DNA of 64,000 nucleotides from Sedimenticola thiotaurini (lineage in GTDB: Bacteria > Pseudomonadota > Gammaproteobacteria > Chromatiales > Chromatiaceae): the NCBI GenBank assembly GCA_007713595.1, contig VMRY01000009.1:123237-187236 (forward strand), written 5' to 3'. A program made the position numbers and the translations under genes. Every line of letters starts with the position of its first letter. Position 1 is the first letter of the stretch. This document shows, piece after piece, positions 2,949 to 6,946 of this stretch. The notes below the pieces were generated by a model. It did not search any database and had not been told where the DNA came from. It saw nothing but the letters and a program-made list of their open reading frames with translations.

Positions 2949-3080
2949 TCCTATTAAGTTGGCGCAAAATCAACGGAACATAATCCTACCTTAAAAAAAT
3001 GGCAAGAATCATATAAAATTCTTATAGAAGCTATTACCGTGGATTAATTGACTTTCTGTTTGCTTGGGGCTACCTTTGCC

Positions 3081-3136
3081 TTGCGCCAATTTGAACTCAG
3101 ATTGCGGGCGCTCAATAAATGCAGCTAAAGCGAGGG
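3081..3136 (+). ncRNA. SAM-II (SAM-alpha type) riboswitch aptamer, metK leader
   Basis: TTGCGCCAATTTGAACTCAGATTGCGGGCGCTCAATAAATGCAGCTAAAGCGAGGG aligns well with the SAM-II core recalled from memory (GCGCU...AUUGCAAGCGCGUGAUAAAUGUAGCUAAA..AGGG). P1 GCGCC/GGCGC present. Directly upstream of metK. Confidence 0.85.
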
Positions 3137-3153
3137 ATCAGCAAATAGCTGTG

Positions 3154-3190
3154 AACCCGTCTTTAGCATTGGCTAGACGGGTTTTCTATT
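3154..3190 (+). terminator. Intrinsic terminator in metK leader (riboswitch expression platform)
   Basis: AACCCGTCT (3154-3162) / AGACGGGTT (3175-3183) 9-bp stem followed by TTCTATTTTC. CTTTAGC at 3161-3167 is the exact reverse complement of the aptamer segment GCTAAAG at 3124-3130. Confidence 0.8.
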
Positions 3191-3209: not shown

Positions 3210-4382
3210 ATGGGCGATTACATCTTTACTTCTGAATCGGTCTCCGAAGGGCACCCTGACAAGGTAGCCGATCAGATCTCTGACGCTGTACTGGATGCCA
3301 TTCTGGCTCAGGACCCCAATCCGGAACATGCCCGCGTGGCCTGTGAAACGATGGTCAAGACAGGGGTGGTCATCGTCGGCGGAGAGATCTCCACCAATGC
3401 CTGGGTCGATCTTGATGACCTGGTACGCAAGGTGATCTGCGACATCGGCTATACCAGCTCAGATGTTGGCTTTGACGGCAGCACCTGTGCCGTCATGTCA
3501 CTGATTGGGAAGCAATCCACTGATATCGCCATGGGTGTTGATCGCACTGCGCCTGAACTACAGGGTGCTGGCGATCAGGGTCTGATGTTCGGTTACGCCA
3601 CCAATGAGACCGAGGTATTGATGCCGGCCCCGATCACTTACGCCCATCGACTGGTGGAGCGTCAGGCCGAGATGCGTAAAAAACGGGTACTGCCCTGGTT
3701 GCGCCCAGATGCCAAGAGTCAGGTGACCCTGCGCTATCAAAATGGCGTGGTCACCGGTATCGATGCTGTCGTGCTCTCCACCCAGCATGACCCCGACATC
3801 AAACAGAGTGATCTGGTCGAGGCGGTTATGGAGAACATTCTACAACCAGTGCTCCCTAAAGAGTGGCTGGACAAGTGTCCACAGAACAAGATTCATATCA
3901 ACCCGACCGGCTCCTTTGTTATCGGTGGTCCCGTGGGTGATTGCGGCCTGACCGGGCGCAAGATTATTGTCGACACCTACGGTGGCGCGGCACGGCATGG
4001 TGGTGGTGCATTCTCCGGCAAGGATCCTTCGAAGGTAGACCGCTCTGCCGCCTATGCCGGGCGCTATGTGGCGAAGAATATCGTCGCCGCTGGTTTGGCC
4101 GACCGCTGCGAAATCCAGGTATCCTATGCCATTGGTGTGGCCGAACCGACCTCTATCTCCATTGAGACCTTCGGTACCGCCAAGATTGACGAAGAGAGGA
4201 TCGCGCAACTGGTACGCGAACATTTTGACCTGCGACCTTATGGCATCATGCAGATGCTAGACCTGATCAAACCGATCTATCAGAAAACCGCCGCCTATGG
4301 ACACTTTGGCCGTGAAGAGCCAGAATTTACCTGGGAGCGAACAGACAGGGCAGAAGCATTGAGGGATGCCGCAGGTCTCTAA
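3210..4382 (+). CDS. metK: S-adenosylmethionine synthetase
   Basis: Canonical MetK motifs ([56 protein letters not shown]). Confidence 0.98.
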
Positions 4383-4454: not shown

Positions 4455-4532
4455 CCCCTCCTCCTGAGAAGCGCTGCAACAGGTTTTCCTGCCAGGCTCA
4501 GGAGGGGGATTCGATCAACATGAACGGCGCTT
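4455..4532 (+). ncRNA. S-adenosylhomocysteine (SAH) riboswitch
   Basis: P1 CTCCTGAG (4461-4468)/CTCAGGAG (4497-4504); conserved AAGCGCTGCAAC and GCCAGGCTC; pseudoknot AGCGC (4470-4474)/GCGCT (4527-4531) with AACGGCGCT. Immediately 5' of ahcY, the classic location. Confidence 0.92.
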
Positions 4533-4552
4533 AGTTTTTTCGGAGACTAATC

Positions 4553-5968
4553 ATGAATGCCGTTGTTGATAACAACTTTACCGACTACAAGATTGCTGAT
4601 CTCTCATTGGCCGCGTGGGGCCACAAAGAGATCGCTATCGCCTACACAGAAATGCCTGGCCTGATGGCCCTGCAAGAGAAGTACGGCGACAGTAAGCCCC
4701 TAAAGGGTGCCCGAATTGCCGGCAGCCTGCACATGACCATCCAGACCGCCGTTCTGATTGAGACCCTGATAAAACTCGGTGCCGAAGTGCGCTGGGCATC
4801 CTGTAATATCTTCTCAACCCAGGACCATGCCGCCGCCGCCATAGCCAATCAGAATATTCCGGTATTTGCCTTCAAGGGTGAGAGCCTGACCGAATACTGG
4901 GAGTACACCCACAAGATTATGGAGTGGCATGATGGTGGTACTCCGAACATGATCCTGGATGACGGTGGCGATGCAACCGGCCTATTGATCCTTGGTACCA
5001 AAGCGGAAAAAGATATCAGCGTACTGGACAACCCAGGCAGCGAAGAAGAGAAGGTGATGTACGCGGCCATCCGCGCGCGGCTGGCCGCCCAACCCGGCTG
5101 GTACTCCAACAATCTGAAGAACATCAAGGGTGTCACCGAAGAGACCACCACCGGCGTGCACCGCCTGTACCAGATGGCGGCCGCAGGTGACCTTCCCTTC
5201 CCTGCTATTAATGTCAATGACTCAGTCACCAAGTCAAAATTCGACAACCTGTATGGCTGCCGTGAATCCCTGGTGGACGGCATCAAACGGGCTACCGATG
5301 TAATGATCGCCGGCAAGATTGCGCTGGTTCTTGGTTATGGTGATGTTGGCAAGGGCTGCGCTCAATCGTTGAAGGGCTTGGGCGCTACCGTCTGGGTCAG
5401 TGAAATCGATCCAATCTGTGCCTTGCAGGCCGCCATGGAAGGATTCCGTGTCGTTGAGATGAATACCGCCTGCGCCGAGGCAGACATCTTTGTCACCACC
5501 ACCGGCAATTACCATGTCATTCAGCACGATCATATGATCCGCATGAAAGACCAGTCTATTGTCTGCAACATCGGGCACTTTGATAACGAGATCGATGTGG
5601 CCAGTCTGGAACAGTATGAGTGGGATAACATCAAACCCCAGGTTGATCACATCATCTTCCCCGATGGAAAGCGCATTATCCTGCTGGCTGAAGGCCGACT
5701 GGTTAATCTCGGCTGCGCCACAGGCCATCCCAGCTTTGTCATGTCAAACAGCTTTACCAATCAGACACTGGCACAAATGGAGATCTGGAACAGTACCGGC
5801 CAATACGAGAACAAGGTCTACACCCTGCCAAAGAAGCTGGATGAAGAGGTAGCACGCCTGCATCTGCAGAAGATCGGCGTCAAGCTCACGACATTGACGC
5901 AAGAGCAGGCGGACTATATCAGTGTGCCAGTAGAAGGCCCCTACAAACCAGAGCACTACCGCTACTAA
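4553..5968 (+). CDS. ahcY: Adenosylhomocysteinase
   Basis: SAHase motifs ([64 protein letters not shown]-terminal KPEHYRY). Confidence 0.98.
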
Positions 5969-6076: not shown

Positions 6077-6946
6077 ATGACTGCCAATCAAACCGATAAA
6101 AAATTGTTCAGCTTTGAACTGTTTCCTCCAAAAACAGAAGAGGGAATGCTCAAGCTGCAGACGCATGTTAAGAAACTGAATCGGATAAACCCCCAGTATG
6201 TTTCTGTCACCTTTGGGGCCGGAGGCTCTACCCAGCAGCGCACATTCCAGAGCGTGGAATGGCTGGTATCCCAAGGCATCGAGGCGGCACCTCATATCTC
6301 CTGCATCAGCAGTAGCGCAGATGAAATAATAACCATGCTCAACAGCTACAAGAGCCAGGGAATAAAACGGATTGTCGCGCTGCGCGGTGACCTGCCCTCT
6401 GGCACGGGGCTGGCCGGGCGCGGGGAGCTCAACTATGCCAATGAACTGGTGGCGTTAATTCGTAGCACGTTTGGAGACCACTTCCACATCGAAGTGGCGG
6501 CCTATCCAGAGTTCCATCCACAAGCCGCCAATGCGGATGCAGATCTGAATAACTTTAAGCGAAAGGTAGAGGCTGGTGCGAATGCAGCCATTACCCAGTA
6601 TTTCTATAACGCAGACGCCTATTTCAAGTTTATTGAGAGTTGTGAAAGGCTCAATATCAACGTTCCCATTGTTCCCGGTATTATGCCTATCACCAACTAC
6701 AGCAGTCTGAGTCGCTTCTCGGATGCTTGTGGTGCAGAGATTCCGCGCTGGATTCGCAAACGCCTGGAAGCCTATGCGGATGATGTGGAGAGTATCCGCG
6801 CCTTTGGTCTCGATGTAGTCAGTGAGCTATGCCAGAGACTGCTCGACAATGGCGCACCGGGACTCCATTTCTATACTATGAACCAATCTGGGCCAACGCT
6901 GAAGATCTGTGACAATCTCAATGTGGCTGAGCAGAATAGAGCGTGA
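6077..6946 (+). CDS. metF: 5,10-methylenetetrahydrofolate reductase
   Basis: FSFELFPPKTEEG, VSVTFGAGGSTQQRT, ALRGDLPSG, GANAAITQYFYNADAYFKF. Confidence 0.97.
   Translation: MTANQTDKKLFSFELFPPKTEEGMLKLQTHVKKLNRINPQYVSVTFGAGGSTQQRTFQSVEWLVSQGIEAAPHISCISSSADEIITMLNSYKSQGIKRIVALRGDLPSGTGLAGRGELNYANELVALIRSTFGDHFHIEVAAYPEFHPQAANADADLNNFKRKVEAGANAAITQYFYNADAYFKFIESCERLNINVPIVPGIMPITNYSSLSRFSDACGAEIPRWIRKRLEAYADDVESIRAFGLDVVSELCQRLLDNGAPGLHFYTMNQSGPTLKICDNLNVAEQNRA

Follow-up and report, generated by a model that had tools for sequence, protein, structure and literature searches.

The question raised by this locus is which RNA element precedes the SAM synthetase gene metK, and how it might control that gene. 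In the window (the whole 64,000-nucleotide stretch of Sedimenticola thiotaurini DNA that was analysed), a sequence-only reading had placed a SAM-II riboswitch working by transcription attenuation. The motifs on which it was built are correctly located (GCTAAAG at 3124-3130, CTTTAGC at 3161-3167, and the metK ATG at 3210). Judged from its sequence, the metK leader is a SAM-II aptamer, and we hold it very probable that it acts as a riboswitch by transcription attenuation, OFF with SAM. The leader and the downstream genes comprise:

3048-3076, plus strand: likely sigma-70-type promoter (-35 TTGACT at 3048-3053, 17-base spacer, weak -10 TACCTT at 3071-3076)
3083-3111, plus strand: P1 of SAM-II, a stem pairing 3083-3087 to 3107-3111, together with loop L1
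within 3083-3111, plus strand: SAM-pocket bases U3090-U3092 and U3102-C3105, residue roles from PMC3764141
3096-3134, plus strand: P2b pseudoknot, CUC 3096-3098 with GAG 3132-3134, from the family alignment
3124-3129, plus strand: ligand-binding core GCUAAA, G42-A47 in 2QWY, which doubles as the antiterminator's 5' strand
3124-3167, plus strand: antiterminator in the predicted fold, 3124-3132 and 3134-3135 with 3161-3167 and 3156-3159, U3160 bulged
3139-3151, plus strand: spacer hairpin CAGC-AAAUA-GCUG in the predicted fold, joining the two antiterminator strands
3154-3183, plus strand: intrinsic terminator predicted from fold energy, arms 3154-3162 and 3175-3183
3210-4382, plus strand: metK, SAM synthetase (TIGR01034 equivalog, 605.8 bits)
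4460-4539, plus strand: SAH riboswitch between metK and ahcY (RF01057, 56 bits, cut-off 37)
4553-5968, plus strand: ahcY, adenosylhomocysteinase (TIGR00936, 624 bits)
6077-6946, plus strand: metF, methylenetetrahydrofolate reductase (TIGR00676, 335 bits)

The aptamer occupies 3083-3136 on the plus strand, upstream of metK. At gathering score, Rfam returned zero matches in the leader region, the SAH riboswitch being the sole RNA in the window. With relaxed thresholds, the SAM_alpha model (RF00521) matched 3073-3146 with 20.9 bits, below its gathering score of 36, which is a cut-off of the model and not a structural feature. The Rfam search suggested by the sequence-only reading was thus sub-threshold, but a covariance model of our own, R2, matched 3080-3141 with 74.4 bits (E 5.6e-20; second-best match in the window, 9.3 bits). 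R2 was made from 16 copies, all outside the window's family, to avoid the circularity of our first model, R1, whose 78.2 bits for the window are circular because the window sequence was among its inputs. R2 also recovers Rfam-level SAM-II members outside the class, taken as alphaproteobacterial (L320 and L321 with ~34 bits, L306 and L309 with ~16 bits). RF00521 itself reaches up to 42 bits in relatives, with three above the cut-off, one of which is a metK leader from the window's family (L003/L193, 39.9 bits); metK leaders above the Rfam cut-off include L003/L193, L169, L171, and L335. Independent covariance models and recurrence in many families support the SAM-II identity, as they do the attenuator layout and the competition of GCUAAAG with CUUUAGC.

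The P1 stem GCGCC/GGCGC, as read earlier, lies at 3083-3087/3107-3111. Across 178 copies its closing pair covaries, being Watson-Crick in 118 versus 62 after shuffling (0 of 1000 shuffles reach this count); the window copy carries a T-T mismatch there. The P2 pseudoknot, which joins L1 to the 3' segment, is found in the window as CUC:GAG. Its P2b pairs 1, 2, and 3 are Watson-Crick in 171, 126, and 83 of the 178 copies, pair 1 being invariant with no excess over shuffles and pairs 2 and 3 standing modestly above them (2 and 24 of 1000 shuffles reach them). The core GCTAAAG is kept in 173/178 copies. By alignment, every pocket base listed in PMC3764141 is kept in the window copy (U10-U12, U20-C23, and G42-A47, with U44 and A47 among the SAM contacts in 2QWY).

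The equivalent of G8, a member of a base triple, is A in the window copy (position 3088), as it is in 15/42 metK copies versus 0/98 metZ copies. This A may tune affinity. Together with the SAH riboswitch that comes next in the same cluster, it could also be taken as the mark of a related aptamer sensing something other than SAM, e.g. SAH or both. We regard this as very unlikely: the sulfonium-contacting U11 and U21 are kept along with the other pocket bases, and neither SAM_V nor SAM-SAH matched the window leader within E 10.

The minus strand of the leader matches RF02424 (Bp2_287) with 30.8 bits, which is below the cut-off of 70 and above the 20.9 bits of RF00521 on the plus strand. RT-PCR has picked up Bp2_Cand287 (PMC3521395), so that the leader could be proposed to hold a small antisense RNA of this family instead of a riboswitch. 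On the plus strand, however, the conserved features have the form of SAM-II, and the promoter, the terminator, and the met gene have the same sense. Moreover, SAM-II lies on the opposite strand in 30/30 loci fetched for weak RF02424 matches. At its cut-off, RF02424 was found in 0/274 genomes of the class sample and in 3/398 of the phylum sample. The three true members (L303-L305; 203.9, 157.2, and 107.5 bits) are all metZ leaders and have SAM-II opposite as well, with 45.5, 57.3, and 31.8 bits for R1 on the metZ sense strand and 40.5, 49.4, and 33.9 bits for R2, which holds no RF02424 sequence. We therefore give the antisense RNA almost no weight. From these matches, RF02424 is apparently SAM-II read on the wrong strand, i.e. 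a strand error in the Rfam family; a cis-acting methionine element had already been suspected for Bp2_287 (PMC3521395).

From the position of the likely promoter, transcription is expected to start just before P1. The -35 motif recurs: TTGAC is present within 60 bases upstream in 156/181 related leaders versus 9.8 expected from shuffling, and usually sits 32-38 bases ahead of model position 1. A simple consensus scan listed neither the candidate promoter nor the terminator of the metK leader. The sequence-only reading had described a strong terminator with a T-run; the hairpin has a predicted energy of -15.9 kcal/mol (z -5.7, 0/200 shuffles equally stable), with a UU bulge at 3163-3164 and an inner AGC/GCU. 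The U-tract, extending to about 3192, is interrupted (TTTTCTATTTT). A terminator is present in 42/43 metK leaders. At the spacer, relatives retain a hairpin whose pairs differ, for instance CAGUG-GAAA-CACUG in L023.

The competition between GCUAAAG and CUUUAGC proposed earlier is seen in the predicted fold, and the complementarity recurs in related leaders. The antiterminator helix has 11 pairs, 3124-3135 with 3156-3167, and is longer than first proposed; the suggested AAT/ATT extension (3118-3120 with 3168-3170) is absent from the predicted fold, and the helix extends the opposite way instead, by 3131-3132:3158-3159 and 3134-3135:3156-3157. Its hairpin is predicted at -19.3 kcal/mol (z -4.0). 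In RNAfold predictions, whose model leaves the pseudoknot outside, the GCUAAAG helix has a pairing probability of 0.98-1.0 in transcripts ending at 3168-3178, and in truncated folds it is displaced by the terminator once the transcript reaches 3182. By prediction and conservation, antiterminator and terminator are mutually exclusive, 3156-3167 being common to both. In the full-length fold the terminator is favoured by about 6 kcal/mol, and therefore the switch must be kinetic.

Under the preferred attenuation mechanism, transcription would begin just before P1. With SAM scarce, 3124-3135, including the would-be SAM-binding bases, would pair with 3156-3167 once that arm is made; the antiterminator would delay the terminator, and RNA polymerase would read through into metK. 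With SAM plentiful, 3124-3134 would be locked in the P2 pseudoknot and the terminator arm left free, so that the terminator at 3154-3183 could form and transcription end before metK. What we infer for the window copy is that it binds SAM, that termination occurs, and that control runs in this direction, the direct evidence being the sequence, class membership by model, conserved complementarity, and predicted energies.

Translational control, in which P2 hides the ribosome-binding site, is the mode of the Sargasso Sea metX SAM-II and the best studied in the class (PMC10907184). In the window, however, 75 bases separate the end of P2 (3134) from the metK start, with the terminator between them, and the same P2-to-start spacing is common to metK leaders, which makes this mode extremely improbable.

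Conservation of the pairing was scored by requiring 7 or more contiguous pairs that join GCUAAAGCG to the 5' arm and loop of the terminator. Such pairing is present in 95/163 related leaders, where about 8.6 are expected from dinucleotide shuffling; these leaders are related by descent and not independent events. Split by target, the counts are 13/41 for metK, 69/95 for metZ, and 13/27 for other leaders, against expectations of 0.9, 6.7, and 0.9. As a control, the same pairing was found in 15/771 unrelated hairpins followed by T-runs, taken from named metK loci and assumed to be terminators. Duplex energies agree (mean z -2.7 for metK and -3.05 for metZ), as do pairing probabilities computed on transcripts cut before the terminator 3' arm (0.71 for metK and 0.87 for metZ, versus 0.19 and 0.29 shuffled). 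No significant covariation was detected in the antiterminator flanks across related leaders. In L335, a metK leader of another family (f178), both strands have changed in step, and GCUAAACAG is fully paired with CUGUUUAGC. Since the core barely varies, the support consists of conserved complementarity and this one coordinated change rather than classical covariation. Loss of complementarity in close relatives, which would have spoken against the sequence-only reading, was not seen: metK leaders of the same genus keep it, exactly in most cases, while L008 has a single mismatch.

In about a fifth of metK leaders, core:arm pairing is slight or absent; examples are L003, L264, L005, L049, L169, L171, L201, and L202, in which aptamer and terminator are nevertheless kept. 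Another competing helix may serve in such leaders. They also bear on the possibility that the aptamer is real and the terminator unswitched, merely capping expression, with control exerted otherwise. A terminator reported to act in this way follows the metA riboswitch of S. meliloti (PMC9373788), and the greater stability of the terminator over the antiterminator points the same way. Against this, 3156-3167 belongs in full to both helices, and metK and metZ leaders keep the complementarity far more often than chance would give. We judge an unswitched terminator unlikely, and attenuation remains our preferred reading.

SAH riboswitches are ON with SAH, which implies control of ahcY opposite to that of metK. 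The order SAM-II, metK, SAH riboswitch (above cut-off) was found in 19/25 metK loci scanned, some of which may end too early and several of which come from close relatives. We put at roughly even chances that the group forms a distinct gammaproteobacterial SAM-II subtype, in which the SAM-binding core supplies the antiterminator so that the pocket doubles as expression platform, metK is the target in several lineages, a SAH riboswitch precedes ahcY, SAM OFF and SAH ON control share one transcript, and G8 to A tunes the sensor.

That SAM-II is mainly alphaproteobacterial, as assumed at the outset, is out of date. Earlier papers had already recorded SAM-II from Beta- and Gammaproteobacteria (PMC1273637, PMC2704228). 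R1 matches, a few of them weak, occur in 140/274 genomes of an even sample across the window's GTDB class; RF00521 exceeds its cut-off in 24/274 genomes of the same sample. In the window's family, 56/146 genomes have R1 matches. Of 195 distinct copies, a metZ-like cluster accounts for 106 and a metK cluster for 43, and the ORF caller misassigned a few more copies of each kind. The metK copies fall into about nine families (f1, f44, f54, f81, f103, f123, f133, f138, f178). By contrast, none of 80 named metK loci, mostly gammaproteobacterial and collected by protein similarity, carries the element (best 13.5 bits); SAM-II control of metK is therefore patchy. Rarer targets are metF and a methionine transporter (metN-like); on reading the translations, SAM-II precedes a metN-like ATPase in L223, L255, and L302 and a metF-like gene in L038, L217, and L232.

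The window's genome has, on another contig, a second SAM-II copy before a metZ-like gene (L013 1501-1572, L033 4314-4374), in whose leader the terminator arm CCTGCTTTGGC pairs over 9 bases with the aptamer core. Possible tandem SAM-II copies, ~100-120 bases apart and with one of each pair scoring lower, were seen in L036, L037, L039, L208, L265, L284, L288, and L289; tandem SAM-II has been published (PMC9481103).

The literature already covers SAM-II, the terminators that go with it, and its occurrence in gammaproteobacteria. In a literature search covering mainly main texts of non-subscription papers, so that novelty is provisional, we did not find SAM-II on gammaproteobacterial metK, a SAM-II antiterminator built from the ligand-binding core, SAM-II/metK usually followed by SAH riboswitch/ahcY, or RF02424 as wrong-strand SAM-II. 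The locus would offer a known riboswitch class with a distinct and testable expression platform, whose competing helix is explicit and recurs in many families, in a class for which this search gave few systems studied since 2007. It also offers a possible answer for two orphan annotations, RF02424 and metXZ. Surveys using the Rfam cut-off miss most such switches.

Among known systems, SAM-II is the class with the most frequent link to terminators in alpha- and betaproteobacteria, its termination mechanism not being experimentally established as of 2007 (PMC2258182), and a promoter just upstream and a terminator downstream were described (PMC1273637). SAM-dependent sRNA and mRNA changes were reported for S. 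meliloti metZ (PMC9373788), and a terminator/antiterminator was predicted for Gluconobacter SAM-II (PMC5756330). Other riboswitches, SAM/SAH (RF01727) and SAM-Chlorobi, also sit before metK (PMC2864571); their structures differ, and they were not matched at the window leader. metXZ was described as a novel beta-proteobacterial element, with RF00521 found in Rhizobiales and Rhodobacterales only (PMC4239095). Its layout as described, a pseudoknot and then a terminator, is like that of the SAM-II leaders here, and we infer that metXZ, too, is very probably SAM-II. Unlike the window's group, metXZ/Bp2_287 has a longer joining region and, in the three loci examined, no core:arm pairing.

The window leader shares with SAM_alpha (RF00521) the P1 stem, the pseudoknot, the invariant L1/P2 pocket bases, a methionine/SAM gene downstream, the promoter, and the terminator. 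It differs in that P2b in the window's group has about 3 pairs, and the Rfam model underscores the group. Like the alphaproteobacterial metZ/metY/metA leaders, it combines an aptamer with a competing terminator. In 20 leaders that carry Rfam-level SAM-II and lie outside the class but within the phylum (taken as alphaproteobacterial), the favoured partner of the arm is the P2 3' strand (mean 0.77) rather than the core (0.32). In the window's group the core is the main partner (0.82 over 157 leaders; above 0.5 in 135). The contrast is indicative, several of the 20 being near-duplicates.
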